From Eubacteriaceae bacterium (GTDB taxonomy: Bacteria; Bacillota; Clostridia; Eubacteriales; Eubacteriaceae): a DNA stretch of 32,922 nt. The DNA lies in assembly GCA_012522805.1 (NCBI GenBank), contig JAAYJS010000030.1, positions 1 to 32,922 of the forward strand. Reading direction: 5' to 3'. Position 1 is the stretch's first letter, and each line of letters opens with the position of its first letter. The position numbers and the translations under genes were made by a program. Positions 10,144 to 32,886 of this stretch are shown here, piece by piece. The notes under the pieces were generated by a model. The model was not told the origin of the DNA and did no database searches. It saw only the letters and a program-made list of their open reading frames with translations.

Positions 10144-11019
10144 ATGAATATAAAAAAAGTATTAATAACCGGTGGAGATGGCCAATTGGGGCGTGCGCTG
10201 TCCTTGGAAATGGACCAACGAAAGATAGAAGCGTTTGCTTACGACTTGGGGGACCTCAATATTACCGATGCACAAAATATCGATAAGGTTTTAGATCAGG
10301 TCGGTCCGGAGGTGGTCATCAATTGTGCTGCCATTACAAACGTAGACGGTTGTGAAACCAATAGGGAACAGGCCTTTGTGGTTAATGCAGAAGGACCTCG
10401 TTTGTTAGCGGAAGCGTGTCAAAAAAAAGATATTGCATTGGTGCAGGTTTCGACGGATTATGTTTTTGATGGTACTGGCATCAAGGAGAAGGATAACATC
10501 AGACCTTACATTGAAAGCGATGAGCCGAATCCTAAAACGGTGTATGGTGCTTCTAAAGCCAAAGGTGAAGAAAACGTCATGGGCATCATGAAGCGCTTTT
10601 TTATTGTACGCACAGCATGGCTCTACGGCGATGGTGCCAATTTTGTTAAAACGATGTTGCAATTGTCCAAAGAGCACCCGGAACTGACGGTGGTTAACGA
10701 CCAAGTTGGGACACCAACCAGTACAAAAGATTTAGCTATTGCCATTGCGGATTTAATTCAAACGGAACATTACGGCATTTACCATGGAACTTGCGAAGGC
10801 CAATGCTCTTGGTACGATTTTACTGTAGAGATATTTGCGCAAATGGGCATCGATGTTCCAGTACGACCGGTAACTTCGAAAGAATTTGTTAGACCGGCGC
10901 CAAGACCTGCCTTTTCCGTATTGGAAAACAAGGCCTTAAAAGATTTAGGTATGAACCGCTTCAGACCTTGGCAAGAGGCATTGGCAGATTATTTAAATGG
11001 CATATCACGACATATATAA
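10144..11019 (+). CDS. rfbD: dTDP-4-dehydrorhamnose reductase
   Basis: Last step of dTDP-L-rhamnose synthesis: NAD(P)H reduction of dTDP-4-keto-L-rhamnose. 291 aa SDR fold with nucleotide motif GGDGQLG (10-16), the STDYVFDG strand (~103-110), catalytic Tyr134-x3-Lys138 (YGASKAKGE) and RTAWLYG (~160). It is the first gene of a D-A-C-B order set, 22 nt before rfbA. Also called rmlD. Confidence 0.95.
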   Translation: MNIKKVLITGGDGQLGRALSLEMDQRKIEAFAYDLGDLNITDAQNIDKVLDQVGPEVVINCAAITNVDGCETNREQAFVVNAEGPRLLAEACQKKDIALVQVSTDYVFDGTGIKEKDNIRPYIESDEPNPKTVYGASKAKGEENVMGIMKRFFIVRTAWLYGDGANFVKTMLQLSKEHPELTVVNDQVGTPTSTKDLAIAIADLIQTEHYGIYHGTCEGQCSWYDFTVEIFAQMGIDVPVRPVTSKEFVRPAPRPAFSVLENKALKDLGMNRFRPWQEALADYLNGISRHI

Positions 11020-11041
11020 AGAGAAATAAGAAAGGAAAACT

Positions 11042-11941
11042 ATGAAAGGCATTATACTCGCCGGAGGATCGGGAACACGTTTATATCCCATCACACGATC
11101 GGTTTCAAAACAACTCTTACCGGTTTACGACAAACCGATGATTTATTACCCACTGTCAACTTTGATGTTGGCAGGCATTAGAGATATTTTAATCATATCC
11201 ACTCCGGAGGATACCCCTGTTTTTAAAAGATTGTTTGGAAGTGGCGAGGAATTGGGGTTAAGTTTTACTTATAAAGTACAGGAGGCACCCAACGGGTTAG
11301 CAGAAGCCTTTATTATAGGAGAGGACTTTATCGGCGACAAAAAAGTCGCTTTGGTGTTAGGAGATAATATTTTTTATGGCCAAGGTTTTACCAAGTCCAT
11401 ACGTACTGCCGCCGCATTAGAGGATGGCGCCGTTATTTTCGGATACCCGGTCCATGACCCGGAACGGTATGGTGTGGTAGAGTTTGACGATTGTGGAAAA
11501 GTCATATCGATTGAAGAAAAACCGGCAAAACCGAAATCTAAGTTTGCCGTACCGGGACTCTATTTTTACGACAATGATGTTGTAGAAATAGCCAAGAACA
11601 TTACACCCTCGGCGAGAGGTGAGTTGGAAATTACTGCGGTTAACGACGCTTATCTAAAAAGAGGAAAATTGGAAGTCGAGCTGTTTAGCCGCGGCATGGC
11701 GTGGTTGGATACGGGTACCTACGACTCCTTAATTGAAGCGGGTAACTTTGTAGAAACCATACAAAAAAGACAAGGACTTTACGTTTCTTGTATCGAAGAA
11801 ATTGCTTACAATATGGGTTTCATCTCCAAGGAACAATTACTGAATTTAGCAGAACCTTTACAGAAAACAGCCTATGGACAATATTTGATATCCAGAGCCT
11901 GTGAGGAAAGGGGCAATCAAAAATGGCTGGGATTACAGTAA
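11042..11941 (+). CDS. rfbA: Glucose-1-phosphate thymidylyltransferase
   Basis: First step of dTDP-L-rhamnose synthesis: dTTP + glucose-1-P to dTDP-glucose. 299 aa with the nucleotidyltransferase signature [10 protein letters not shown] (7-16), [11 protein letters not shown] (23-33), GDNIFYG (~107) and EEKPAKPKS (~158). Strong SD AGAAAGGAAAACT before ATG. Its 3' end overlaps the rfbC start by 19 nt. Also called rmlA; length and motifs match the RmlA-short (rhamnose-type) enzyme. Confidence 0.96.
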
Positions 11942-12486
11942 CGCAAACGGGTATTGACGATTTAGTGATTATAGAACCAACGGTTTTCGGAGATGAACGC
12001 GGTTATTTTATGGAAACTTATAACCGTCAAGTTTTTGAAGAAGCCGGTCTCAACATGACCTTTGTACAAGACAATGAGTCTTGCTCAAGAAAAGGTGTTT
12101 TGCGTGGTCTGCATTTTCAAACACAAAATGTTCAAGGTAAACTGGTTCGTGTAACAGAGGGAGCCGTTTGGGACGTTGCCGTCGATCTGCGAAAGGAATC
12201 TAAAACCTTTGGCGAATGGGTCGGCATCACCCTATCCGCAGAGAACAAAAAAATGTTTTATGTTCCCGAAGGCTTTGCCCATGGTTTTGTCGTTTTGTCC
12301 GACATGGCAACTTTTACCTATAAGTGCACCAATTTTTATGCACCGGAATTTGACGGAGGCATTCGCTACGATGATCCGGATATAGGTATTCAGTGGCCAA
12401 CCCAAGAAATAGAGACTCTGCTTTTATCGGATAAAGATCGACAACTACCATTTTTAAAAGAAGTCGCCGATCATTTGCCATTTTAA
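11923..12486 (+). CDS. rfbC: dTDP-4-dehydrorhamnose 3,5-epimerase
   Basis: Third step of dTDP-L-rhamnose synthesis. 187 aa cupin-type epimerase with [12 protein letters not shown] (22-33), the catalytic His64 in RGLHFQ (61-66), WDVAVDLR and the [15 protein letters not shown] signature. Starts inside the end of rfbA (19-nt overlap, different frame) with SD GAGGAAAGGGG, so translation is coupled. Also called rmlC. Confidence 0.96.
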
Positions 12487-12513
12487 ACAACGGTTCATTA
12501 AAAGGAGATTGTT

Positions 12514-13620
12514 TTGAAAACCCTATTAGTAACAGGTGGAGCCGGCTTTATCGGCTCAAATTTTGTAAAGGAAAGTCTGCGCGCATTTCCGGATTTTAAA
12601 ATTGTCAATCTGGATGCTTTAACCTACGCGGGTAATTTAGAAAACTTGAAGGATGTAGAAGACCATCCTCAGTATGTCTTCATTAAAGGTGATATCACCG
12701 ATGCTGCTTTAGTAGAGCGCCTTTTCGAAGAACACGATATCGACTATGTCGTTCATTTTGCGGCGGAAAGCCATGTGGATCGTAGCATTGAGGACCCGGG
12801 TATTTTTGTTAAAACCAACATCATGGGCACCCAAGTTCTATTGGACGCTGCGAAAGCCCATTGGGAAACCGGAAAGGACGACTTAGGTTACCCAACTTAC
12901 AGAGAAGGTGTCAAATATCTTCAAGTTTCCACCGATGAGGTTTACGGTGACTTGGGCAAAACCGGTTTGTTTACGGAGAAGACATCTCTTAAGCCCAACA
13001 GCCCGTACTCCGCGTCAAAAACCGCCGCGGACTTGCTGGTAAGATCCTACGGCAAAACTTTTAAACTACCTATTAACATAACTCGCTGTTCCAACAACTA
13101 CGGAGCTTATCAATTCCCTGAAAAATTGATCCCATTAATGTTGTCCAACGTATTGGATTTAAAACCTTTGCCTATTTATGGAGATGGGATGCAAGTGCGG
13201 GACTGGTTACACGTCAAAGATCATTGCATCGGCATTGCAACGGTACTTTTACATGGTAAAGACGGTGAGGTCTACAACATCGGTGGCAACAACGAAAAAG
13301 CCAATATCGAAATTGTCGATCTCATACTGGAAACCGTACGCAAAAAACTAACAGAAAAAAAATACTCCGGGATCGATACCGACCCCGCAAAAATCGATGA
13401 CAGCTTAAAAACCTATGTCGAAGACAGACTGGGACACGATCGACGATATGCGATCGATAATACAAAAATTACGACGGAATTGGGTTTTGTGCCGACCTAT
13501 ACCTTTGAAGAGGGCATTGAGGAAACCATCGAATGGTATTTAAACAATCAGGATTGGTTGGACCAGGTGCGCTCGGGAGACTATCAAGACTACTACGAAA
13601 AGATGTATAGTAAAAAATAA
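12514..13620 (+). CDS. rfbB: dTDP-glucose 4,6-dehydratase
   Basis: Second step of dTDP-L-rhamnose synthesis. 368 aa extended SDR with NAD motif GGAGFIG (8-14), HFAAESHVDRSI (~81-92), catalytic T140-D141-E142 (STDEVYGDL) and Y165-x3-K169 (YSASK). The C-terminal part is somewhat longer than many RmlB proteins, with extra Lys-rich sequence around 285-310. The start is TTG at 12514 with AAAGGAG at 12501-12507. Last gene of the rml block; a 161-bp gap with a strong hairpin follows. Also called rmlB. Confidence 0.96.
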   Translation: MKTLLVTGGAGFIGSNFVKESLRAFPDFKIVNLDALTYAGNLENLKDVEDHPQYVFIKGDITDAALVERLFEEHDIDYVVHFAAESHVDRSIEDPGIFVKTNIMGTQVLLDAAKAHWETGKDDLGYPTYREGVKYLQVSTDEVYGDLGKTGLFTEKTSLKPNSPYSASKTAADLLVRSYGKTFKLPINITRCSNNYGAYQFPEKLIPLMLSNVLDLKPLPIYGDGMQVRDWLHVKDHCIGIATVLLHGKDGEVYNIGGNNEKANIEIVDLILETVRKKLTEKKYSGIDTDPAKIDDSLKTYVEDRLGHDRRYAIDNTKITTELGFVPTYTFEEGIEETIEWYLNNQDWLDQVRSGDYQDYYEKMYSKK

Positions 13621-13781: not shown

Positions 13782-14594
13782 ATGAATGAATCTGAAAGGG
13801 CATTGACAGTGCCTTCCCAAGGGCTCAAAGACTATTTTGAAAAATTTTATCGTTACCGTCACTTATTAAAAGAGTTGGTGTCCAGAGATATTAAAATAAA
13901 ATACCGAAGGTCTGTATTGGGCATTGTGTGGAGTGTTTTAAACCCTTTGCTGATGATGTTGGTCATCACTGCTGTATTTTCCAGGTTTATGAGAACAGAG
14001 AATTTTGCAGCCTTTTACCTATGCGGATCCCTGATATACAATTTTGTATCCGAAGGGACCAATGGTGCCATGAACGCCATACTCATCAATGCATCCTTAA
14101 TTAAAAAAGTGTATGTACCAAAGTATATCTTTCCTCTGGAAAAGGTGCTGTTTGCCTTGGTCAATGCGTTGTTCTATTTAATTGCGGTAGCTATTGTTTT
14201 TATAATAGCCAAGGTACCCTTGCATTGGACTATTGTTTTGTTTCCCATACCATTGGCTTACACGTTTCTTTTTGCTTTGGGCTTGGGGTTAATCTTATCG
14301 ACGATCAATGTTTTTTTTAGAGATATGAACCATCTGTATTCGGTTTGGCTGACGGCATGGATGTACTTGACACCAATTATCTACCCGGTGGACATTTTGC
14401 CGGAAGAGGTGCACAAGCTGATTCAATTGAATCCTTTATACCATTATGTAACTTACTTCCGAGATGTTATGATGTATGGTAGGGTACCCGGCTTAGTGGA
14501 AAATCTGATTTGTTTGGGGATTGCACTGATCTTTTTATCAATCGGCTTAACAGTCTTTAAAAAATACCAAGATCAATTTATTTTGAGAGTGTAG
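13782..14594 (+). CDS. ABC-2 type polysaccharide/polyol-phosphate export permease (Wzm/TagG-like)
   Basis: Membrane half of a lipid-linked glycan exporter. 270 aa with the ABC2_membrane pattern: amphipathic N-terminus (YRHLLKELVSRDIKIKYRRSVLGIVWSVLNP), about six membrane segments, and the conserved loop FFRDMNHLYSVWLTAWMY-LTPIIYPVD near residues 180-205, then NPLYHYVTYFRDV. Strong SD AAGGAG. The ATPase gene follows after 3 nt. By context (rhamnose genes, glycosyltransferases) the cargo is likely an undecaprenyl-pyrophosphate-linked rhamnose-containing polymer; teichoic acid is an alternative. Confidence 0.92.
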   Translation: MNESERALTVPSQGLKDYFEKFYRYRHLLKELVSRDIKIKYRRSVLGIVWSVLNPLLMMLVITAVFSRFMRTENFAAFYLCGSLIYNFVSEGTNGAMNAILINASLIKKVYVPKYIFPLEKVLFALVNALFYLIAVAIVFIIAKVPLHWTIVLFPIPLAYTFLFALGLGLILSTINVFFRDMNHLYSVWLTAWMYLTPIIYPVDILPEEVHKLIQLNPLYHYVTYFRDVMMYGRVPGLVENLICLGIALIFLSIGLTVFKKYQDQFILRV

Positions 14595-14597
14595 TTT

Positions 14598-15341
14598 ATG
14601 GAAAAAATGATTGAAGTAAGAGACGTATCCATGCGCTTTAATATGGCCAGCGAAGTGATTTCAGGCTTAAAGGAATATGTCATCAAATTAGCGAAAAGAG
14701 AATTATTTTTTAAAGAGTTTTATGCTTTAAGAGACATGACCTTCGATATTCATAAAGGGGATGTTTTTGGCATCGTGGGCTTAAACGGCTCAGGGAAATC
14801 GACTCTGCTGAAAATCATATCCGGAATTTTAAAACCCACCACCGGCTTTGTACGAGTGGGAGGTAGTTTATCACCTTTAATAGAATTAGGGGCGGGTTTT
14901 GATTTTGAGCTGACAGCCCGAGAAAATGTCATGCTCAACGGATTGGTTTTAGGGTATTCGAAAGATTTAATGCTCTCCAAGATGGATGAAATCATTGAAT
15001 TTGCCGAGCTTAGAGAGTTCATGGATGTCGCTATTAAAAACTTTTCTTCAGGAATGATTGCTCGCTTGGCTTTTGCCATCGCCACGGCAGTTACACCGGA
15101 GATTCTCATTGTCGATGAGATTCTATCGGTCGGTGATTTTCTTTTTCAAGAAAAATGTGAGCGACGTATCAATGAAATGATGAAAGGGGATACAACCGTT
15201 ATCATCGTATCCCACTCAATCGATCAAATAGAACGTTTGTGCAACCGCGTTCTTTGGATAGATAAGGGAAGAATGGTGCGTATAGGAGAAACGCAAGAAG
15301 TGTGCAGTGCATATAAAAATTTCGGCGGTCAGCCGGTGTAG
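14598..15341 (+). CDS. ABC exporter ATPase for polysaccharide (Wzt/TagH-like, no glycan-binding domain)
   Basis: Energises the adjacent permease. 247 aa with Walker A GLNGSGKST (61-69), signature FSSGM (149-153), Walker B ILIVDE (169-174) followed by SVGD, and switch His206 (VSHS). It stops directly after the ATPase fold: the C-terminal carbohydrate-binding domain of Wzt proteins that recognise a capped O-antigen (~400 aa) is absent, so export is probably not gated by a terminal sugar cap. Weak SD; likely coupled to the permease gene ending 3 nt earlier. Confidence 0.93.
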   Translation: MEKMIEVRDVSMRFNMASEVISGLKEYVIKLAKRELFFKEFYALRDMTFDIHKGDVFGIVGLNGSGKSTLLKIISGILKPTTGFVRVGGSLSPLIELGAGFDFELTARENVMLNGLVLGYSKDLMLSKMDEIIEFAELREFMDVAIKNFSSGMIARLAFAIATAVTPEILIVDEILSVGDFLFQEKCERRINEMMKGDTTVIIVSHSIDQIERLCNRVLWIDKGRMVRIGETQEVCSAYKNFGGQPV

Positions 15342-19747: not shown

Positions 19748-19858
19748 TTATCGTAAGCAGGCTATGGTATCATCCTAATGACAATTTGACTAGGCAACAA
19801 GTTTGAGCAGCACAATCAAGAACCGAGCCTCTTGTTCTATGATATTAGAAAGGAGGAC

Positions 19859-22475: not shown

Positions 22476-22506
22476 AGGACCGAGGTTTTCCTCGGTCCTT
22501 TGTTTA
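22476..22506 (+). terminator. Intrinsic terminator of the autolysin gene
   Basis: AGGACCGAGG (22476-22485), loop TTTT, CCTCGGTCCT (22490-22499), then TTGTTTA. A perfect 10-bp GC-rich stem 14 nt after the stop codon. Confidence 0.92.
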
Positions 22507-22681: not shown

Positions 22682-23671
22682 ATGAATCAAGCAAGAAAAA
22701 CTATCCAAACTTCAGTCATCATCCCCAATTACAATGGCATGGCCTATATCGACAATTGTATCAAGAGTTTGTTACCGTTAAGGGAAGATCAGGAAATTAT
22801 CGTTATAGACGACGGCTCTTCCGACAACAGCAAGGCTTATTTGAAAGATTTAAAAGAAAAAGGCCTGATACGTTTTTATGAAAATCAAGAGAACAAAGGC
22901 TTTGCCTATTCCGTGAATCGAGGCATTACAGAAGCTCAAGGACAGTTTGTTTTGCTCCTCAACAACGATGTGGTAGTTGAAAAAGGTTTTGTTGCGAACT
23001 TAACCTCAGCAATACAATCAAAAGCAAACGCTTTTTCCGTTTCTTCAAAAATGGTACGCTTCTACGAGCGAACCTTACTGGACGATATTGGAGATAACTA
23101 CACCATATTGGGTTGGGCTTATAAAAGAGGGGACGGCAAGCCCTTGGCCGATGGAGCACGATCTTCTAAAATATTCAGCACCTGTGCAGGTGCCGGTATT
23201 TATCGCAAATCTGTTATAGAAAAAATCGGTGGATTTGACGAAAGCTTTTTTGCTTATTTAGAAGATGTGGATTTGTCCTATCGGGGCAAATTGTATGGCT
23301 ATACCAACTATTACACGCCAAAAGCGGTTTGTTACCATATCGGCTCTGCAACGACTGCAGACGGTAAAAAGTACTCACCTTTTAAGGTGTCTCTTTCAGC
23401 TCGCAACAATGTGTATTTGGCTTATAAAAATATGCCAACCCTCCAACTCATTTTAAATGCGCCCTTTTTATTGCTGGGGCATATGATTAAAGGAGTCTAT
23501 TTTCAAATAATAGGTTTTGGTTCGGATTATCGCAGCGGTTTGTGGGAAGGTTTGACAACGATGGGTTGCAGATCAAAAACACCTACAAGTTTTAAAAAAA
23601 TACCGATTTATTTAAAAATTCAGATAGAATTATTGGTGAATATGTTTAAATATATAAAAGAAAAATGGTAA
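22682..23671 (+). CDS. GT2 glycosyltransferase (WbbL/rhamnosyltransferase-like)
   Basis: 329 aa, probably cytoplasmic-face. GT-A motifs: SVIIPNYNG (11-19), VIDDGSSDNS (~42-51), LLNNDVVVEKG (the DXD equivalent, ~92-102), CAGAGIYRK, and the acceptor/catalytic LEDVDLSYRGK near 195. The C-terminal ~90 residues have a moderately hydrophobic segment (LILNAPFLLLGHMIKGVYF) that may attach to the membrane. SD AAAGGA before ATG. First gene of an operon running to 28130. Donor sugar is not readable; dTDP-rhamnose is plausible. Confidence 0.88.
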   Translation: MNQARKTIQTSVIIPNYNGMAYIDNCIKSLLPLREDQEIIVIDDGSSDNSKAYLKDLKEKGLIRFYENQENKGFAYSVNRGITEAQGQFVLLLNNDVVVEKGFVANLTSAIQSKANAFSVSSKMVRFYERTLLDDIGDNYTILGWAYKRGDGKPLADGARSSKIFSTCAGAGIYRKSVIEKIGGFDESFFAYLEDVDLSYRGKLYGYTNYYTPKAVCYHIGSATTADGKKYSPFKVSLSARNNVYLAYKNMPTLQLILNAPFLLLGHMIKGVYFQIIGFGSDYRSGLWEGLTTMGCRSKTPTSFKKIPIYLKIQIELLVNMFKYIKEKW

Positions 23672-23674
23672 ATC

Positions 23675-24547
23675 ATGGACTTATCTATTATTATTGTCAA
23701 TTATAAAACACTTGAATTGACCGATCAGTGTGTGCGCTCTATCAAAGAAGCCAATATGAGCGACTTAAGCTATGAAATTATCTTAGTTGATAACGCCTCC
23801 CTAGACGGTAGTCTGGAAGCTTTAAAAGAAGCACATCCCGATTGTATCTTTATCGAAAACAAAGAAAATCTCGGATTTTCCAAGGCGAATAACCAAGGTT
23901 TGAGGATTGCTAAGGGTCGATATCTCCTTCTACTCAATTCCGACACCATTGTAGAAACACTGACTTTAAAACAATGTGTTGCATTTTTAGAACATCACAG
24001 CGGTGTGGATGTTTTAGGTTGCAAGGTGGTATTGGAAGATGGATCCTTAGATCCTGCATGCAAACGCAGCTTTCCCACACCGGCAAATAGTTTGTACCAT
24101 TTTTTGGGTCTCGGAAAGCGTTTTCCCAAAAGTCGACGTTTTGGAGAATATAACTTAACCTATGTAGATGAAGACAGCATTTTTTCTGTCGATTGTATCA
24201 TGGGTGCTTTTATGATGATGCGCAGAGAAATTTTAAATACAGTTGGCTATTTGGATGAGGACTACTTCATGTACGGAGAAGATATCGATTGGTGTTATAG
24301 AATGAAACAAGCAGGACATCAAATCATTTATTATCCAAAAGTCAAAGTATTTCATTATAAAAAAGCTTCCGGCATCGGAAAAAGAAACCCTAAGGTCATT
24401 TCCGCGTTTTATGATTCAATGGGCATTTTTTTTAAAAAGCACTATCACAACCAATATTCACCGCTTTTGACTGCATTGGTTTTGAGTGGCACAAAGGTTT
24501 TAAAAGGTATTGCATTGATAAAAAACAAAGGAAAAAATGAACGATGA
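23675..24547 (+). CDS. GT2 glycosyltransferase (WbbL-type, putative rhamnosyltransferase)
   Basis: 290 aa with SIIIVNYKT (4-12), LVDNASLDGS (~37-46), LLLLNSDTIVE (~88-98), CIMGAFMMMRRE (~173-184) and GEDIDWCYRMK (~203-213) followed by VFHYKKASG; this arrangement is typical of WbbL-like rhamnosyltransferases. Starts 3 nt after the previous stop with a poor SD, so likely coupled; its TGA overlaps the ATG of the next gene (ATGA). Acts on a lipid-linked acceptor by context. Confidence 0.88.
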   Translation: MDLSIIIVNYKTLELTDQCVRSIKEANMSDLSYEIILVDNASLDGSLEALKEAHPDCIFIENKENLGFSKANNQGLRIAKGRYLLLLNSDTIVETLTLKQCVAFLEHHSGVDVLGCKVVLEDGSLDPACKRSFPTPANSLYHFLGLGKRFPKSRRFGEYNLTYVDEDSIFSVDCIMGAFMMMRREILNTVGYLDEDYFMYGEDIDWCYRMKQAGHQIIYYPKVKVFHYKKASGIGKRNPKVISAFYDSMGIFFKKHYHNQYSPLLTALVLSGTKVLKGIALIKNKGKNER

Positions 24548-25941
24548 TTAAAAGCAATCAAAAATATTTTAATTTTTTGCAATTTGTATTGGATATGCTG
24601 TCCGTCAGTTTGGCATTGTTATTTGCCTGGTATATACGTTTTGTATCTCCATTTTTCCCGGATTGGGTGCGTTCCTTAGATTTTGTTGCCTACATCAATT
24701 TAGTCATTGTCTTGATACCGGTCTATGCGCTGATTTATTATGCCTTTGATCTCTACAAACCCTTTAGAAAAACACCTTTTTTCAGAGAAGCAGAGAAAAT
24801 GTTGCTAGCAAATTCCTTGGGATTGCTCATTATGGTAGCTTACCTATATGGTACAAAAAGCATCCATTTTTCTCGAATCATGCTGGGATTTTTCTATATT
24901 TTCAGCAATATCTTCATGATGTTGGAACGCTACATCATTCGCCAAACCTTAAGGCGCTTTAGAGCGAAGGGATACAACTTAAAACACATCGTCATCATCG
25001 GTGCCGGGCAAACAGGCATCACCTTTGCCAATAAAATAAAAAGCGATCCCCGTTTAGGTTATAATATCGTGGGCTTTGTAGATGATTACGTTGATTGCGA
25101 TACCGTAGAAAATATACCCGTATTGGGGAAGACCAAAGACGTCGAGGCGATACTGGAAGATCAACGCTTGGACGAAGTAGTTATTGCGTTATCCACCAAT
25201 AGCCATCAAAAAATCAATAAGCTGATTGATGTTTGTGAATACCAAGGCGTTAAAACCCAAGTCGTACCGGATTATTTTCACTTGATACAAGGTTCCAAAC
25301 CGGCATTTGACGAATTAGACGGCATACCTTTAATTTATACACGGTACATCCCCCTAGATGAGCCCATCAACAGAGGGTTGAAACGACTTCTAGATATGTT
25401 GTTTTCGTTGGTGGTCATTATTTTGCTCTCTCCATTTTTGTTGATCGTGGCACTCTTGGTCAAACTGACCTCTCCGGGGCCAATTATTTATAAACAAGTA
25501 CGAGTAGGAATGAATCGCAAGGAATTTAAAATTTATAAATTTCGATCCATGCGCAACGACATTCCGGAAGTAGGAGAGACGGAATGGACCGTAGAGGATG
25601 ATCCCAGACGGACAGTCTTCGGGACATTTATTCGAAAAACCAGCATCGATGAATTGCCACAGTTTTTCAACGTCTTGAAAGGAGACATGAGTGTCGTCGG
25701 TCCCAGACCGGAGCGGCCTTATTATGTCAACCAGTTTAAGGACGAAGTCCCTAAGTACATGATTAAGCACCACGTGCGTCCGGGTATAACCGGTTGGGCA
25801 CAAGTCAACGGTTGGCGAGGGGATACCTCTATTGTTGAACGTATTAATTGCGACATCGAATATATTGAAAAATGGACCCTGTGGTGGGATATTAAGATCT
25901 TTTTCATGACCTTTGCCGCTGTATTCAAAAACGCTTATTAA
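24544..25941 (+). CDS. Undecaprenyl-phosphate sugar phosphotransferase (WbaP/WcaJ type)
   Basis: Initiates glycan synthesis by moving a hexose-1-phosphate from a nucleotide sugar to undecaprenyl phosphate. 465 aa: four N-terminal membrane segments (~10-125), a Rossmann-like CoA-binding domain (HIVIIGAGQTG, 148-158, to ~240), then a reentrant/transmembrane helix (~281-307) and the phosphoglycosyltransferase core with KFRSMRND (332-339), catalytic Asp369-Glu370 (TSIDELPQ) and GDMSVVGPRPERP (380-392), GITGWAQVNG. ATGA overlap with the upstream gene. The expected sugar is glucose or galactose; the sequence does not decide. Confidence 0.94.
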   Translation: MIKSNQKYFNFLQFVLDMLSVSLALLFAWYIRFVSPFFPDWVRSLDFVAYINLVIVLIPVYALIYYAFDLYKPFRKTPFFREAEKMLLANSLGLLIMVAYLYGTKSIHFSRIMLGFFYIFSNIFMMLERYIIRQTLRRFRAKGYNLKHIVIIGAGQTGITFANKIKSDPRLGYNIVGFVDDYVDCDTVENIPVLGKTKDVEAILEDQRLDEVVIALSTNSHQKINKLIDVCEYQGVKTQVVPDYFHLIQGSKPAFDELDGIPLIYTRYIPLDEPINRGLKRLLDMLFSLVVIILLSPFLLIVALLVKLTSPGPIIYKQVRVGMNRKEFKIYKFRSMRNDIPEVGETEWTVEDDPRRTVFGTFIRKTSIDELPQFFNVLKGDMSVVGPRPERPYYVNQFKDEVPKYMIKHHVRPGITGWAQVNGWRGDTSIVERINCDIEYIEKWTLWWDIKIFFMTFAAVFKNAY

Positions 25942-25949
25942 GGTAAAAT

Positions 25950-26306
25950 ATGACAACTGTAATTTCAATTTTCGTTTATTTGTTATGTAGTGTGGGTGGT
26001 TTGACTTTGGTAAAAGTTGGACAAGACCACAATCAGGCCGCACTACATTCCCAATATTTTCAACTGTCCCTGTCCTACGTTACTTTGTTGGGACTGGTCA
26101 TGTATGTTTTTAGTTTTTTGATGTGGATCGTCATCGTGCAAAAATACAATTTAAGTTATATCCAACCCATTACGACGGGGTTGTCCTATATCTTTATCAT
26201 CGCCATGTCTATTTTCGTTTTAAAAGAGACCATCATCAGAACACAATGGATCGGCATTGTGTTCATATTGATCGGCGTTCTGCTTATGAATATCAAACCC
26301 AGCTAG
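25950..26306 (+). CDS. SMR/EamA-like four-helix small membrane protein (candidate Und-P-sugar flippase)
   Basis: 118 aa with four predicted membrane helices (~4-20, 38-62, 66-88, 93-114). The sequence QPITTGLSYIFIIAMSIFVLKE followed by a fourth helix (QWIGIVFILIGVLLM) is characteristic of EmrE/ArnE-like proteins. The gene immediately precedes a polyprenyl-phosphate-sugar-synthase-like gene, so flipping of an undecaprenyl-phosphate-linked sugar is more likely than drug efflux. I cannot see a clear Glu14-equivalent of the drug pumps in helix 1. SD is AAGGTAAA. Role is inference. Confidence 0.75.
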   Translation: MTTVISIFVYLLCSVGGLTLVKVGQDHNQAALHSQYFQLSLSYVTLLGLVMYVFSFLMWIVIVQKYNLSYIQPITTGLSYIFIIAMSIFVLKETIIRTQWIGIVFILIGVLLMNIKPS

Positions 26307-26313
26307 AAGGTGA
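26305..26313 (+). promoter_or_regulatory. Ribosome site that sets the start of the DPM1-like gene
   Basis: AGAAGGTGA ends 5 nt before ATG 26319. It overlaps the in-frame GTG at 26310, which would otherwise extend the frame by three codons but has no site of its own. Confidence 0.7.
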
Positions 26314-26318
26314 CTTAT

Positions 26319-27044
26319 ATGCGTGTACTCATGATTATACCGGCTTACAACGAAGCCATGAATATAGAAAAAGTGATTGATGATATCCATAATAACTTTA
26401 AAGAAGCGGATATCTTAATCATCAACGATTGCTCTCAGGATAATACCCTGGAGGTGATTCAAAAAATTGACGGCATCGACTACGTCAACCTCCCGGTTAA
26501 CTTGGGGTACTCTTTTGCAGTACAGACCGGATTCAAATATGCGGTCGAACAAAACTACGATTATCTCATCCAATTTGACGGAGACGGCCAACATTTGGCT
26601 TCTGAAGCAAAAAGAATGTACGATTATGCCTTAGAAAAAGATTGTGATGTGCTGATCGGTTCGCGGTTCTTGGAAGCGACGGATTATCAACACTCTTTCT
26701 TTAGAAAAATCGGCACCGGTCTGTTTCAGAAAATCATCAGGATGCTGACGGGTAAAAAGATATCCGACCCGACATCGGGACTACAGGTGTTGAATCGAAA
26801 GGTTTTTACACCTTTATCCAAAATCAACAATTATCCTGAATTTCCCGATGCCAATTTGTTGATCCAATATATTTTTCAAGGTTACCAAATCGAAGAAGTG
26901 GGCGTTCAAATGAAAAGCAGAGAATTTGGCGAAAGCATGCACAGTGGCATTTTAAAACCTGCCAAGTATATGATTAAAATGTTTTATTATATATTAGTGG
27001 TTTTTGCCAACCACCTCACCGGTAGAAGGGGGCAGAAATCGTGA
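26319..27044 (+). CDS. DPM1-like GT2, putative undecaprenyl-phosphate-sugar synthase
   Basis: 241 aa. Begins RVLMIIPAYNEAMNIEKVI with LIINDCSQDNT, the QFDGDGQH metal motif (~86-93), GSRF and SDPTSGLQVLNR, the pattern of dolichol/polyprenyl-phosphate mannosyl- or glucosyltransferases (also GtrB-like). No C-terminal membrane anchor is apparent, unlike GtrB/CsbB. It would transfer a nucleotide-activated sugar to undecaprenyl phosphate on the cytoplasmic face. Flanked by the SMR-like gene and a DUF2304 gene, whose start overlaps its TGA (GTGA). Confidence 0.85.
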   Translation: MRVLMIIPAYNEAMNIEKVIDDIHNNFKEADILIINDCSQDNTLEVIQKIDGIDYVNLPVNLGYSFAVQTGFKYAVEQNYDYLIQFDGDGQHLASEAKRMYDYALEKDCDVLIGSRFLEATDYQHSFFRKIGTGLFQKIIRMLTGKKISDPTSGLQVLNRKVFTPLSKINNYPEFPDANLLIQYIFQGYQIEEVGVQMKSREFGESMHSGILKPAKYMIKMFYYILVVFANHLTGRRGQKS

Positions 27045-27382
27045 TCACCCAAATATTTTTTATACTCCTTGCTGTTGCCCTCATTGCTTATATCTACGCA
27101 GGTGTTCGGAAAAATCAATTATCCCAAGATGAGAGCATTTTTTGGATGTTGGGTTGCTTGGTGGTTTTGCTCTTGGGCATCTGGCCAAATATCATCGTGT
27201 TTTTAGCAAAACTCATCGGGATTGATTATCCTCCGTCTCTTTTGTTTTTAATGGTATCGATCTTTATTATTTTCTTAGCTTACCGCAATAGTCGGCATAT
27301 CTCCATCTTGAACGAAAAAAATAAAGAATTGATTCAAATTGTCGCTTTGATGGAGAAGAGAATTAGAGAGTTGGAAAAGTAG
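27041..27382 (+). CDS. DUF2304 family small membrane protein
   Basis: 113 aa: three membrane helices (~2-19, 33-54, 63-81) with the family-typical LSQDESIFWMLGCLVVLLLGIWPNII region, then a cytoplasmic amphipathic/coiled-coil tail (NEKNKELIQIVALMEKRIREL). Biochemical function unknown; DUF2304 genes usually sit next to a DPM1-like glycosyltransferase, as here, and may anchor the soluble synthase to the membrane (inference). GTG start overlapping the upstream TGA; an AAGGGGG-type ribosome site lies upstream. Confidence 0.85.
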   Translation: MITQIFFILLAVALIAYIYAGVRKNQLSQDESIFWMLGCLVVLLLGIWPNIIVFLAKLIGIDYPPSLLFLMVSIFIIFLAYRNSRHISILNEKNKELIQIVALMEKRIRELEK

Positions 27383-27383
27383 A

Positions 27384-28130
27384 ATGTCTAAAGTATCGAT
27401 CATTATGCCAGCATATAATGAAGAAAAACATATAGCTGAATCTATTGAATCTGTTTTGAAGCAAATTTACCAAAACTGGGAATTAATTGTTATCAACGAC
27501 GGCTCTCAAGATCGTACCCGTGACATTGTGGCACAATACGCATCCGAGGATGAGCGCATTATTCTGATTGATAACGAAAAAAATATGGGGATTGTGTGCG
27601 CTAGAAATAACGGTATCAACCGGATGACCGGACGATATCTGGCTTTTTTAGATTCTGATGATTGCTGGTATCCTCACAAGTTGGAAAGACAAATTGAGGT
27701 TTTAAAAGAAACGGGTTATCCCTTTGTCTTTTCCTCCTACGATAAAATGGATGAAAACGGCAATCCATTAAAAAAGAAAGTTTGTGTCAAAGGCAAATAT
27801 ACCTATCAGAAAATGCTGAAAGCAAATTTTGTTGGAACTTTAACTGCGATCTACGATACACATCAAGTAGCACGCAGACTCTTTGTGCAAGACTTTTTAA
27901 TGGAAGATTACAAACAGTGGTTGAATATCTTAAAAGAAATTGATTTTTTATATGCCATAGAAGAACCCCTTGCGAGGTATCGTGTTCGAGAGAGTTCGCT
28001 TTCCAGCAATAAATGGAAGGTGGTTAAAGCGGATTACGATATTTACCGTAGAGGTGAAAACTTATCGGTAGCCCAATCTCTTTATTATACTTTGTCCCAT
28101 ATTTGGATTAAAGTGTTCAAGAATTCCTAA
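27384..28130 (+). CDS. GT2 family glycosyltransferase
   Basis: 248 aa with a standard N-terminal GT-A domain: VSIIMPAYNEEKHI (3-16), VINDGSQDRT, ARNNGINR, FLDSDDCW (~93-100), and a C-terminal LARYRVRESSLS typical of teichoic/capsule GT2 enzymes. The middle is short, so it is compact. Starts 1 nt after the DUF2304 stop with a poor SD. Last gene of the operon before the bidirectional terminator. Donor and acceptor unknown. Confidence 0.88.
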   Translation: MSKVSIIMPAYNEEKHIAESIESVLKQIYQNWELIVINDGSQDRTRDIVAQYASEDERIILIDNEKNMGIVCARNNGINRMTGRYLAFLDSDDCWYPHKLERQIEVLKETGYPFVFSSYDKMDENGNPLKKKVCVKGKYTYQKMLKANFVGTLTAIYDTHQVARRLFVQDFLMEDYKQWLNILKEIDFLYAIEEPLARYRVRESSLSSNKWKVVKADYDIYRRGENLSVAQSLYYTLSHIWIKVFKNS

Positions 28131-28152
28131 CATAAACAATTGACTATAAAAT

Positions 28153-28213
28153 AAAACAACTTAGGATCTGCAGTTTTTTTCACACAATACAGATCCTAAG
28201 TTGTTTTTTATTT
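28153..28213. terminator. Bidirectional terminator between convergent operons
   Basis: AAAACAACTTAGGATCTG (28153-28170) and CAGATCCTAAGTTGTTTT (28190-28207) are perfect complements over 18 bp. The right arm runs into TTTTTTATTTT on the + strand, and the A-rich left flank gives TTTTAT on the - strand. It separates the glycosyltransferase operon from the DUF2142 operon. Confidence 0.93.
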
Positions 28214-28244
28214 TGAGATCCTCTAAAGTTGTTATTTTAAATGA

Positions 28245-29750
28245 TTAAAATGCAGTGGATGTATAGAGATAGGTGATCAAAAGCCCTCCTGTTAGAAAAA
28301 CCAATGACGCCATCGTATAAAAAGAAAAGACCTTTTCTATGTGGGACTCTTTTATAACGCCAACTTGAAAAACAAGTGGCAATATGGCGAATAAGGGCAT
28401 AAAATACCTTCCCTGGACGCCGGATATCTCCAATGCGCCCACTGTAGTCCAAGTGATATACATACTGAAGTTGGTGACTAGAAAGATCACGAAAGCGATC
28501 GTTAACAGGCCAATTTTTGCAAAGAGAGATAAGTGTTTTTTACCGGGTTTACCTGCTAGCAATGTGAGGCTGCCGTATACATATGGAAAGTACTTGGTTG
28601 CAACTTGATCCTCGTATTCAAACCATCCGTATATGAAAATTGTATTGACTTTGTCTGTAACGTTAGCGATTGCCTTGAGCATGATGTAGATAAAGTCGCG
28701 GGGATGATTAAATATAAAAGCAATTTGATCACCATAATGAATGCCTTGTTCGGCAAGATAATCAATTTTGTTGAGTCCGATTGTTGACGTCCCGCTTTTT
28801 AGAATGACCAGACATAAGATAAACAAACAACCTATCAGCCCGAGAGACGACAGAACAGGACGTTTGAGTTTAAAGTTTCTTTGAGGGATGGTCAACAACA
28901 GACAAATGAGAACAAAATAAGTTACTTTGCTCATACCGGCTCCAATGGTCATCAAGGCCAGTATGGTGCACTCACGCATACCGACGGTTTTTTCTTTCTT
29001 GAAATATAATTTGATAAAATAAGATAGTGTTAAAAGGGCAAAACCGTTGATGGTCGCATCGGGACTACAAGAGGCGGCTTGAAAAACCGTCATGGGCAAA
29101 AGCCATACAAATGCAAAAACCTCTTTGTATTGTGGTGCAATTTTAATGGTGTGATAGGCCAAGAACGAAGCACAGAGCAAATTACACAGTCGTCCTAACC
29201 ACATCAGCCAGATGGGAGGTAATCGCAAGGCTTTGGCAATGAAAATACCCAAGGCTTGGGGTAAATAGCTGACAAAAAAATTTTGTCTGGCCACATCAAA
29301 GGTCTTAGCAGGCTCTAAATTCCGAGATTTATGACGAATGGTTGAAACCTGATACAGTTTTTGTGCGTCTAGGCTCAGATCTTCAACAGTCTGTATCGTA
29401 TTGTAGGTTGTGTCATCATTTTGCTTTGGAAAGAAGTCCAATCTGGAGGTTGCTTCGGATCTGGCAAAATGAGCTACCTCATCGGGCACTCCTAAAATGG
29501 GCGTCAAAATCAAAGATAAAAAGCCGAAACATAATAAGATACAACAAACTTTCTTTTCTATGGGTGCTTCGTGGTGATACATAAAAAAACCGGACAAAGC
29601 GGTAAATACCAATGTAAAGAATAAGGCGGAAGAAGGTATTTGCAGGTTCTGATCGGTTGGTTGATAAATCCACCAAAAGGTCAATGAAATCAAATAAATA
29701 CTAAAAAAGATTGTAAAATTGCGATGACGGGTTATCCATGCTTTGATCAT
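28245..29750 (-). CDS. DUF2142 family integral membrane protein, shorter copy (putative GT-C glycosyltransferase)
   Basis: 501 aa, about 12 membrane helices. First outer loop carries VPDEVAHFARSEATSR (89-104), the acidic DE-x2-HF motif diagnostic of DUF2142; near the C-terminus VQGRYFMPLFAILP is the second family motif. The family resembles GT-C enzymes that use polyprenyl-phosphate sugars outside the membrane, but function is unproven. Start chosen at ATG 29750 because CAAGGAAACGAAGT precedes it; a TTG at 29771 lacks a site. Follows the longer copy by 24 nt in an operon with an LCP gene. Confidence 0.85.
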   Translation of the reverse strand: MIKAWITRHRNFTIFFSIYLISLTFWWIYQPTDQNLQIPSSALFFTLVFTALSGFFMYHHEAPIEKKVCCILLCFGFLSLILTPILGVPDEVAHFARSEATSRLDFFPKQNDDTTYNTIQTVEDLSLDAQKLYQVSTIRHKSRNLEPAKTFDVARQNFFVSYLPQALGIFIAKALRLPPIWLMWLGRLCNLLCASFLAYHTIKIAPQYKEVFAFVWLLPMTVFQAASCSPDATINGFALLTLSYFIKLYFKKEKTVGMRECTILALMTIGAGMSKVTYFVLICLLLTIPQRNFKLKRPVLSSLGLIGCLFILCLVILKSGTSTIGLNKIDYLAEQGIHYGDQIAFIFNHPRDFIYIMLKAIANVTDKVNTIFIYGWFEYEDQVATKYFPYVYGSLTLLAGKPGKKHLSLFAKIGLLTIAFVIFLVTNFSMYITWTTVGALEISGVQGRYFMPLFAILPLVFQVGVIKESHIEKVFSFYTMASLVFLTGGLLITYLYTSTAF

Positions 29751-29774
29751 ACTTCGTTTCCTTGAGTGCAAAAC

Positions 29775-31691
29775 TTACAGGTTGGTTAACCAAAACAAAT
29801 AGACCAATGTATATTGGTTGAGTACAAAGGCAAAACTCCCAATACCTAAGGTAAGGATTTCCGGCGTTATTTTTGTTTTTGTGGCATGGCTCGACACCAT
29901 CAAAATCAATGGCAAGAGTAATGGTGCGAAATACCGTGGTTGTATACCGTTAATCGTATTGGCACCAACAGCGTTAAAGGTTAAATATAAGACACTGCAG
30001 ACCAAGCCCCAAGTTAAAATAACAGTCATGAAAAGCGTGAATCGATCTCTAGCGGTTAAATAGAGCTTGTTGGAGGGCATCCCATCTTCTGTAAATGTGA
30101 CAAAAAATAGGCTGACCAATGCAACAGCAGGAAAGAACTCAGGTGTATAGCCTAAATAAGCAAACTTGTTGATCGGTGTGGTCCAATATTTTAAAAACAT
30201 ATTCAACACCTCTTGAAAACAAAGGTGGATTAAGTGTAGGGGGTGGCGCAAAACATACATTATTTGACCACTGACAGACATACCGGGAACCTCCCATTGG
30301 GCGGCACCGCTGATTGTGGCATAAACATAGGTCAGCAATGTAAAAAGAGCAGTGATGGTAAAAACCGCACCGGTATACTTTCTGCGTTGACCCTTCACAA
30401 AGGAGTCTTGAGGTAATAATAAAATTAAAAGACAAATTAAAAAATAGGGTAGTTTAGCCATCAATGTTAAGGCACATAAAAAAGAAAAGAGTAGGGTTTC
30501 CTTCCAACCTATTTTCGTATTTTTGTCCGTCTTCCAATTGACGACCAAAGTAACAGCTGCTAAGGCAAAAATAAAAGTTGCCAAATCCGCTGTGTAAAGC
30601 GCAAATTGGAAAATCAATCCGGGGAAAAGGCAGAGCAATAAGATGGTTTTTTGTTTGATGACAGCTTTTTTGATGATCAAGGCACCGAGAACGGCGTAGG
30701 CTATACTGCCGGACAATCTTCCTAAATAAAAAATGGTCATCAGTGACGCATTGCATAGCTTGCCGATCAATATTCCCATGGCCGAAAAAACATAAGGAAC
30801 CGGTGTATAGGTGTCAGCGGTGCTCCACTCATAGCCACTGTAACGACGCCCCTTGAGCTCGGAAAAATGATCCATAAAATTCTGACGTTGTTCGTAAGTT
30901 GTAAATGTAGAACGGTTAATATGATAAGAAAAAAAATCATCTAAACCGTCTTTATCAGGCCAAGAGTTGGCGCTTTTTCTGATTCCGAAACTCGGAGTAG
31001 CAGTTTTATAAGCTTTGACAAAGTGTTCTCTTTCGTCAAAACCGCAATAGGGCGGTAATAAAAGACTCATGGAACACCCAATGTATAGGGCTAAAATTAA
31101 AAAAGTGAGAGCCGGTTTTTGGACCCATACTTTTCTATAGCGAATACCTAGGATCAATACGATAAGTCCGTTGGCGATTAAAAAGAACCGTACCGTATTA
31201 AAAGGAATAGTGGCGTCAACCTCCATAATGTCTATTGAAAAATCTTTGACCTCTCCGATGAAAGTATTAATGTGAATGGGCTGTTGGTTTAATGGGACCG
31301 ATCCTTTTACCGGCATGATCTGAGGAAAAGCGTTCCAACCGCTGTACTGTACCGTGGGCAACGGGTTATCCTGAGCAACAGCGCCGACTGATAGCGTGGT
31401 TGTTTCATCAATAGGCTGTATTTTTAGTTCAAGTTGCTGTGCATAAGTGTCTCTTTCGATCACAAAGCTCGGGTTTGGACCGGTTACCACAAAGGTATTC
31501 TCTTCCGTTTTTTGAAGGTCTGTTATAGAAAGTTCATCAAGTGCGATAGGACGAAGATCTTGACGATGCAATCGGTTGTTGGTGATCTTTGTATAGAAAG
31601 CTTCTCCGATCCATACGGTTAAGAGTATAGAAAAAATAATCAACAAGCTGATCAGATTATTTTTTTTGACTAAAGTTTTGAAATTTAGCAT
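29775..31691 (-). CDS. DUF2142 family integral membrane protein with extracytoplasmic N-terminal domain (putative GT-C glycosyltransferase)
   Basis: 638 aa from ATG 31691. Membrane helix ~13-33, then a ~130-aa beta-rich outer domain (~40-165, few charges in clusters, no cysteines), then about eleven helices. The motif CGFDEREHFVKAY (216-228) and IQPRYFAPLLLPL near the C-terminus match its neighbour and define DUF2142. The ATG is 4 nt after the stop of the LCP gene (TAA-ATCT-ATG), suggesting termination-reinitiation; an upstream in-frame ATG at 31763 would overlap the LCP gene by 68 bp and lacks a ribosome site. Polymer-decorating transferase is inferred from context. Confidence 0.85.
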   Translation of the reverse strand: MLNFKTLVKKNNLISLLIIFSILLTVWIGEAFYTKITNNRLHRQDLRPIALDELSITDLQKTEENTFVVTGPNPSFVIERDTYAQQLELKIQPIDETTTLSVGAVAQDNPLPTVQYSGWNAFPQIMPVKGSVPLNQQPIHINTFIGEVKDFSIDIMEVDATIPFNTVRFFLIANGLIVLILGIRYRKVWVQKPALTFLILALYIGCSMSLLLPPYCGFDEREHFVKAYKTATPSFGIRKSANSWPDKDGLDDFFSYHINRSTFTTYEQRQNFMDHFSELKGRRYSGYEWSTADTYTPVPYVFSAMGILIGKLCNASLMTIFYLGRLSGSIAYAVLGALIIKKAVIKQKTILLLCLFPGLIFQFALYTADLATFIFALAAVTLVVNWKTDKNTKIGWKETLLFSFLCALTLMAKLPYFLICLLILLLPQDSFVKGQRRKYTGAVFTITALFTLLTYVYATISGAAQWEVPGMSVSGQIMYVLRHPLHLIHLCFQEVLNMFLKYWTTPINKFAYLGYTPEFFPAVALVSLFFVTFTEDGMPSNKLYLTARDRFTLFMTVILTWGLVCSVLYLTFNAVGANTINGIQPRYFAPLLLPLILMVSSHATKTKITPEILTLGIGSFAFVLNQYTLVYLFWLTNL

Positions 31692-31695
31692 AGAT

Positions 31696-32886
31696 TTACC
31701 AACGTTCTTCAATATTTCTGGAGATTTCCTTTGCGTTTTGCGAAGGGTTGTAGTCCGATTCATAAATAAATCGATACAATGCTTTGATATTATCCTCTAA
31801 AGTATCCGGAAATACGTAAGAGACATCGCCCCGCATATCCTCGGCTAAATACCGACTGTCCGGGATTTGTGCCTGCTCGATTCTTGCATTTCTGTGAAAG
31901 ATCATTCTGCCCCCGTAGGTCATCAATTGGTTGAAAGACAAAGAGGTGTCGATATAAGGTTTAACCGTATTATAAAAGGCTATTTGCTTCCATGGCGGCT
32001 GTTTGATGACTTTTTTTAGAACTTGTTCAAACACAGCTCGTTGTCTTTGGGTGCGTACGTAATCGCCGTGTCCGGCATAGCGCACACGACAATAAGCCAA
32101 AGCCTGGTTACCGTCTAAGCGTTGCAACCCGATGTCCGGAATATTTGGCGAATGGGTATTGACTTTCTCATTAACATCCCACAAGTATTCGTTGGTCCAT
32201 TCCAACTCATCGTAGGTTTTAATCTCAATATCGACACCGCCAACAGCGTTTACCATCTGTGGCATGGAATTAAAGTCGATGACAACATAATCGGTCACAG
32301 CGACATCGAAGTTTTCGTTGATAACCTTTAAAGCTTTTTCCGCACCACCGATAGAATAGGCGGCATTTAATTTATCAAAACCATAGTCTTCATCGATATA
32401 GACATAAGTATCCCTTAAAAGAGAAGTCACTTTGATGGCATTATGCTCATAGTCGGCAGTGGCGATCATCATAGAGTCGGAGCGACTGCCTTCGACACCT
32501 TCTCTTTCATCTACACCTAGGACAGCGACATTTACAATTTTATGCCTTAAAGCAAAATCGTAGGCAGATGGGGAAACTTGCAGCCGAAAAGCATTCTTTT
32601 TTAAATCGGAATGGAGATTTCCGAAAATGATAAGATAAAAAAAATAAAGAAATCCGATTGCAACAAAAATCTTTAAGAATCGGGCAAGACAACCGTTTTT
32701 TTTCGCAGACCGTTTTTTTCTGTTAGGGTGGTTGCCACTTCCATTGCCATTGTCGTTATACAGTGAAGAAGCCCCCTGATTCCTTGTTTTACGGGGACTT
32801 GGCTTATTTCTACGGGTATTTAATTCTTGTGAACGTCTTGGTTTGGGACGTCTGTTTCCAATGATGGGTTTTCTTCGTTTATCCAT
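31696..32886 (-). CDS. LytR-CpsA-Psr (LCP) family wall-glycopolymer ligase, basic N-terminal tail
   Basis: 396 aa. Residues 1-~65 are a cytoplasmic Arg/Lys/Pro/Asn-rich tail, one membrane segment ~70-88, then the LCP domain with Asp126 (AVLGVDEREG), Arg135/Asp137 (SRSDSMM), Arg158 (SLLRDTY) and YCRVRYAGHGDYVRTQRQRAV. Ends directly after the LCP fold with no extra domain, unlike the LCP protein at 8750-9985. First gene of the - strand operon with two DUF2142 genes, so its polymer may be the one they modify. ATG at 32886 has only a weak GGA-type ribosome site. Confidence 0.93.
   Translation of the reverse strand: MDKRRKPIIGNRRPKPRRSQELNTRRNKPSPRKTRNQGASSLYNDNGNGSGNHPNRKKRSAKKNGCLARFLKIFVAIGFLYFFYLIIFGNLHSDLKKNAFRLQVSPSAYDFALRHKIVNVAVLGVDEREGVEGSRSDSMMIATADYEHNAIKVTSLLRDTYVYIDEDYGFDKLNAAYSIGGAEKALKVINENFDVAVTDYVVIDFNSMPQMVNAVGGVDIEIKTYDELEWTNEYLWDVNEKVNTHSPNIPDIGLQRLDGNQALAYCRVRYAGHGDYVRTQRQRAVFEQVLKKVIKQPPWKQIAFYNTVKPYIDTSLSFNQLMTYGGRMIFHRNARIEQAQIPDSRYLAEDMRGDVSYVFPDTLEDNIKALYRFIYESDYNPSQNAKEISRNIEERW

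Follow-up and report, generated by a model that had tools for sequence, protein, structure and literature searches.

The window analysed here is a 32,922-nucleotide stretch of DNA from a member of the Eubacteriaceae, the family to which Acetobacterium also belongs; it is a single contig (JAAYJS010000030.1, assembly GCA_012522805.1) of a 2.0-Mb genome. From 10.1 kb onward, the window carries a wall-polysaccharide cluster that includes genes for an SMR/ArnE-ArnF-like protein, a DPM1/GacI/PpgS-like synthase and a DUF2304 protein on the + strand and, facing them on the minus strand, two DUF2142 proteins (DUF2142a and DUF2142b). These genes probably form a module for multi-component transmembrane glycosylation of a rhamnose-containing wall polysaccharide which is exported by an ABC (ATP-binding cassette) transporter and anchored by an LCP protein. 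We observed the gene content, a neighbourhood conserved in relatives, modular replacement of the flippase and transferase, the absence of GtrA from the genome and of Wzx from the cluster, and a GT-C-like fold in a weak structural model of DUF2142a.

We infer the catalytic and transport activities, the contact between DUF2304 and the synthase, and the identity, linkage and acceptor of the sugar, and the proposed mechanism is as follows. At the inner face of the membrane, DUF2304 would hold the anchorless GT2 synthase in place and activate it, and the synthase would load a sugar from a nucleotide sugar onto undecaprenyl phosphate (Und-P). The SMR/ArnE-F-like protein would flip the resulting Und-P-sugar, probably as a dimer and, because it has a Ser at the position of EmrE Glu14, without proton coupling. 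At the outer face, one or both of the DUF2142 proteins would act as GT-C enzymes and move the sugar onto the exported backbone, and the LCP protein would join the decorated, ABC-exported, rhamnose-containing chain to peptidoglycan.

Conservation and exchange of the module

The order SMR-synthase-DUF2304 is kept in 12 distinct Eubacteriaceae loci, usually in the form WcaJ-SMR-synthase-DUF2304. Orthologues occur in conserved order in Acetobacterium and other genera, so the gene set is more than a chance association. Across 40 genomes of the family, SMR is present in 17 and DUF2304 in 20, and DUF2304 occurs in every genome with SMR (17/17) but in few of those without it (3/23; Fisher 1.3e-8). Of the three genomes that have DUF2304 and no SMR, G027 (locus L046) has, close to its synthase, GtrA and a fragment of Wzx, and the cluster of G026 (L050) encodes a protein with 13 transmembrane (TM) segments that belongs to no Pfam family. 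At L046:4547-5772, two overlapping open reading frames (ORFs) together have ~12 TM segments and match Wzx weakly; they look like a single flippase gene split by a frameshift or an assembly error.

The first-pass annotation of the window had described adjacent genes for an SMR-like protein, an anchorless DPM1-like synthase and DUF2304, facing two multispanning DUF2142 proteins with DE-x2-HF motifs, and the ORFs, domains and motifs were all confirmed. Its grouping of these genes also stands, since the neighbourhood is conserved in relatives and the genes co-occur, both in the family and class-wide. It had also described the module as split across convergent operons; we rejected this split as a meaningful feature of the system. 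DUF2142 is co-directional with the cassette in most relatives, so the convergent arrangement next to the LCP gene in the window is a local rearrangement. In Acetobacterium (L024-L027), DUF2142 follows DUF2304 and a GT2 on the same strand. Five genomes have DUF2142 directly beside SMR: it lies directly before SMR in L039, L043 and L044, and likewise in L074 and L075, there ~10 kb 5' of the synthase.

Co-location was also surveyed class-wide, in 391 genomes holding 44 DUF2304 genes and using a distance of 2.5 kb. DUF2142 was found within this distance of DUF2304 in 11/44 cases (0.06 expected) and an SMR homologue in 7/44 (0.03 expected); these expected values assume random gene placement and independent genomes, which overstates the significance, though the families are many. 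Searching the class with just the SMR sequence led to 20 loci outside the Eubacteriaceae, and in half of them (10/20) a DPM1-like gene lies no more than two genes away. Contiguous four-gene units of synthase-DUF2304-SMR-PMT_2 (GT-C) occur in other families (L121:5361-8266 and L130:1446-4151) and may represent the system at its simplest. Other arrangements are synthase-SMR-PMT_2 (PF13231; L120, L131 and L127), synthase-DUF2304-12-TM protein-SMR (L119), and SMR-synthase-DUF2304 as in the window (L179). GtrA directly follows DUF2304 in L028, L167 and L169, and DUF2142 adjoins the synthase-DUF2304 pair in L164, L165, L168 and L181.

In other loci SMR is thus replaced by GtrA or Wzx, i.e., the flippase is exchanged as a module. 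We lean slightly towards a broader view, namely that this side-chain system is distinct and widespread among Gram-positive bacteria, that its GacI/GacJ-type pair would be combined with a dedicated single-gene SMR-like flippase, and that both the flippase (SMR, GtrA or Wzx) and the GT-C transferase (DUF2142, PMT_2 or others) would be swapped as modules.

The synthase and DUF2304

The synthase gene (26310..27044, +; PF00535 1.8e-23, PpgS 1.8e-27) encodes a predicted GT-A Und-P-sugar synthase, for which an ATG at 26319, behind AAGGTG, is a better start than 26310. The closest solved structures in a sequence search of the Protein Data Bank (PDB) are P. furiosus DPMS (5mlz, 1.8e-22) and ArnC (~1e-17), with the alignment limited to the GT-A domain. 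Asp40, the DxD motif (Asp90, Asp92), Arg119, Arg132, Glu196, Arg204 and Ser209 are invariant across 16 synthase homologues. The window synthase and its orthologues have no hydrophobic TM segment, unlike ArnC, which bears TM helices of its own. PpgS is the top NCBIfam model, with a score of 96 against a cut-off of 370; by this model, the window synthase is not a PpgS orthologue. The Eubacteriaceae have two synthase subfamilies, both of which are found with SMR.

The next gene (27041..27382, +; PF10066 2.1e-25) encodes a DUF2304 protein with three TM segments and a charged C-terminal helix, which we propose as a GacJ/WpsB-type partner and activator of the synthase. DUF2304 is a domain of GacJ (PMC8327497), and GacJ binds GacI and activates it, as WpsB does with WpsA (PMC10821137). 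WpsA has no TM segment and is placed at the membrane via WpsB in an AlphaFold model; a WpsB-WpsA fusion is active, the reverse WpsA-WpsB fusion is inactive, and natural GacJ-GacI fusions are known (PMC10821137). Class-wide, all 20 loci of a sample selected on DUF2304 alone have a DPM1-like GT2 gene directly 5' of DUF2304, and most of these GT2 proteins have no predicted TM segment. Relatives that lack DUF2304 (L083-L085) have, in the same genomic slot, DPM1-family synthases with two TM segments of their own, which fits the idea of DUF2304 as an anchor.

That slot in L083, L084 and L085 contains AglJ-like synthases whose two TM segments are C-terminal, DUF2142 directly 3' of WcaJ, and an overlapping pair of small ArnE-like genes, apparently a different solution at this locus. 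A 450-aa ORF in L022 was considered as a DUF2304 fusion and rejected as a chance match, since it reads as an antiporter-like transporter.

The candidate flippase

The gene directly before the synthase (25950..26306, +) encodes a 118-aa, 4-TM protein that we propose as the Und-P-sugar flippase. It passes the Pfam cut-off for EamA (PF00892; 34.2 bits vs 28.2; 3.8e-8) and weakly matches ArnF (3.4e-8) and ArnE, below the equivalog cut-offs for both. Its size and its setting among genes of lipid-sugar biosynthesis fit the SMR lipid subtype (about 100-120 residues), its orthologues have four hydrophobic segments, and those in eleven other loci share 60-68% identity. The AlphaFold model has four helices but, with a mean predicted local distance difference test (pLDDT) score of 55 and a shallow alignment, was left out of fold searches.

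Lipid-type SMRs lack the proton-binding Glu (PMC9574504), and the residue aligned with EmrE Glu14, which is Ser14 in the window (Thr in many orthologues, Ser in ArnE), agrees with this. The window's genome has 0 matches to GtrA (PF04138), a family found in 283/391 genomes of the class. There is no Wzx in the cluster, and the sole PF01943 protein of the genome is SpoVB-like and on another contig.

The candidate transferases

The two DUF2142 proteins are polytopic and are proposed to be outer-face GT-C transferases. DUF2142b (28245..29771, -; PF09913 4.9e-44) carries the motif DEVAHF, and DUF2142a (29775..31691, -; PF09913 1.4e-44) carries DEREHF and a domain of ~140 residues after its first TM segment. 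Ten DUF2142 homologues all keep the D, H and F of DE-x2-HF, and these residues lie just after a predicted TM helix. A longer DUF2142a ORF (29775-31763) runs 68 bases into the LCP gene, so an internal ATG at 31691, which avoids the overlap, is probably the true start.

The AlphaFold model of DUF2142a has a mean pLDDT of 45 (about 70 in the core) from a shallow alignment and was used with caution. Foldseek gave no hit at E < 0.001, and its high-probability hits were GT-C enzymes. When this low-confidence model was re-aligned to the PDB, all matches from Z 12.5 to 6.8 were GT-C enzymes or GT-C-fold subunits, led by ArnT (Z 12.5, 269 residues, root-mean-square deviation 4.9), and unrelated proteins began at Z 6.1, although such Z scores can be reached by chance for helical proteins. 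The model therefore supports a GT-C fold for DUF2142a but does not prove it. PDB sequence searches with the DUF2142, DUF2304 and SMR profiles gave no credible relatives.

In Acetobacterium clusters, large DUF6056 and DUF7657/DUF7654 membrane proteins are encoded 3' of DUF2142 (L024:12913-15663 and L025:12930-16558) and are candidates for further outer-face transferases.

Alternative explanations

Several results weigh against the proposed transmembrane glycosylation. The class-wide co-location figures take no account of genome relatedness or of the tendency of envelope genes to cluster in general. For the SMR-like protein, a Pfam search gave no PF00893 match, the score against the ArnF equivalog model was 34 bits (cut-off 99), and the Tyr-switch position (EmrE Tyr60), which is Tyr in EmrE and ArnE, is Gln72; in this column, some SMR orthologues have Ala and the proteins in L121, L130 and L133 have Tyr. 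An hhalign comparison of DUF2142 with a PMT_2 set was not significant, and nor was one with ArnT. Lactococcal WpsJ and WpsI share the DUF2142 domain (PMC12599335) and WpsI is a putative polymerase, so side-chain transfer is not the sole possible role. Finally, a GT2 lies directly 3' of DUF2304 in most Eubacteriaceae relatives, which could mean that the sugar is elongated before flipping.

This last point leads to the main rival, which we consider unlikely: a WpsA/WpsB-type route in which the Und-P-sugar is only a primer, a TuaG-like GT2 (with others) extends it to an oligosaccharide, and two WpsJ/WpsI-like DUF2142 proteins ligate or polymerise this product after flipping. The TuaG-like gene (27384..28130, +; NF047683 8e-69), a candidate for main-chain or side-chain elongation, belongs to the + operon and directly follows DUF2304, but it was absent from the first-pass annotation; in relatives, its slot holds a different GT2. 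WpsC elongates WpsA/B products (PMC10821137) and the two DUF2142 genes parallel WpsI and WpsJ (PMC12599335). Against this route, the cluster has no Wzx, the only MOP protein detected in the genome is the SpoVB-like one, and known SMR-type flippases handle monosaccharide lipids (PMC9574504). The synthase-DUF2304-SMR-PMT_2 units of other families also have no intervening GT2.

A second alternative is that the SMR-like protein is not a flippase but an exporter of another solute or an accessory subunit, with the SpoVB-like MOP protein or some other protein moving the lipid-linked sugar. The weak ArnE/F scores, the missing PF00893 match and the unconserved Tyr-switch residue would all suit this. 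We nevertheless judge it very improbable, because several families show SMR tightly linked to the synthase together with DUF2304 or GT-C genes, other loci have GtrA in its position, and paired ArnE-like genes are present where DUF2304 is absent.

Least probable of the alternatives is that the DUF2142 genes serve a separate process (e.g., one tied to the adjoining LCP gene) and are not partners of the + strand cassette. They do lie on the opposite strand together with LCP, and in some relatives (e.g., G003) SMR and DUF2304 are present but DUF2142 was not detected. Yet DUF2142 is co-directional with and adjacent to the cassette in Acetobacterium, stands directly beside SMR in the five genomes given above, and is recurrently near DUF2304 class-wide (11/44 loci).

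Surrounding genes

On the + strand, the cluster runs in the order rmlDACB, ABC exporter, two large GT2 genes, an amidase with GBS-Bsp repeats, two further GT2 genes, WcaJ, SMR, synthase, DUF2304 and the TuaG-like GT2; on the minus strand are LCP, DUF2142a and DUF2142b. The dTDP-rhamnose synthesis genes rmlDACB (10144..13620, +) would supply the backbone precursor, and the Wzm/Wzt-type ABC exporter (13782..15341, +; PF01061, PF00005) would export the backbone. The LCP-family glycopolymer-peptidoglycan ligase (31696..32886, -; PF03816 2.8e-34) also ends the cluster in relatives, where it lies on the minus strand.

The genes at 22682-28130 are probably one operon, because each directly adjoins the next or shares a few bases with it and the strongest predicted terminator (22476-22499) is just 5' of the gene at 22682. 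The putative first gene is a GT2 glycosyltransferase (22682..23671, +; PF00535 1.4e-27), found at the same position in Acetobacterium and other genera. It is followed by a second GT2 (23675..24547, +; PF00535 2.6e-23), syntenic in relatives, and by the main-chain primer, a WcaJ-type Und-P hexose-1-phosphate transferase (24544..25941, +; TIGR03023 488 bits, cut-off 411), which is directly 5' of SMR in most relatives. Within the cluster, positions 19832-22462 encode a protein with Amidase_3, four GBS-Bsp-like repeats and glucosaminidase, whose adjacency is kept in relatives.

Relation to known systems

The closest likeness is to GacI/GacJ/GacK/GacL of the Streptococcus pyogenes group A carbohydrate and WpsA/WpsB/WpsG/WpsJ of Lactococcus, where a soluble GT-A synthase is followed by its DUF2304 partner and the surrounding cluster encodes a rhamnose wall polysaccharide exported by an ABC transporter (PMC10821137, PMC8327497), and WpsJ provides a DUF2142/GT-C transferase (PMC12599335). 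The window differs in having an SMR/ArnE-F-like flippase, whereas GacK and WpsG are Wzx-type, and in having two DUF2142 proteins as well as a WcaJ primer in the same operon. The proposed module would work like ArnC-ArnE/ArnF-ArnT, which transfers L-Ara4N to lipid A with a DPM1-family synthase, an SMR-type flippase and a GT-C transferase; ArnE shares the Ser at the EmrE Glu14 position, and ArnT gives the best alignment of the low-confidence DUF2142a model. However, ArnE/F is a pair, the acceptor is lipid A, and the window SMR falls below the ArnE/F equivalog cut-offs.

GtrA/GtrB/Gtr and CsbB/GtcA/YfhO share the three-step logic, but the window's genome has no GtrA family, its synthase lacks the C-terminal TM segments of GtrB and CsbB, and no YfhO was seen in the cluster. 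PpgS (Rv3631)-Rv3632 of Mycobacterium tuberculosis likewise pairs a GT2 polyprenyl-P-GalNAc synthase with a small membrane protein (PMC3485146), but with a different wall polymer and transferase, and the window synthase is well short of the PpgS cut-off (96 vs 370).

The first-pass annotation had proposed an SMR-like flippase in place of GtrA, DUF2304 as the membrane anchor and DUF2142 as the transferase. The conserved neighbourhood favours all three roles, as do the GtrA/Wzx replacement elsewhere and the lack of GtrA and cluster Wzx here for the first, and the GT-C-like fold comparison for the third. None is new in itself, however: ArnE/F are SMR-type flippases of Und-P-sugar (PMC9574504), the anchor idea was published for GacI/GacJ and WpsA/WpsB (PMC10821137, PMC8327497), and a DUF2142 transferase is known from WpsJ/WpsI (PMC12599335). 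The literature searched contained no description of SMR with GacI/DUF2304 and no paper on a Eubacteriaceae wall polysaccharide. The parts are all of known type, but an ArnE/F-like flippase serving a GacIJ-type pair and conserved across Clostridia seems undescribed in that literature.

In Gram-positive wall-polysaccharide decoration, the flippases for, e.g., the glucose side chains of Streptococcus mutans are marked as unknown (PMC11754754). A four-gene unit with a single small flippase gene, a GtrA-free genome and a conserved operon together make a clean test case for SMR-like flipping. Around a constant synthase-DUF2304 core, the flippase and transferase families are exchanged, and if this is indeed a distinct system, candidates for the missing flippases of Und-P-sugars in Gram-positive wall-polysaccharide synthesis would come from it.

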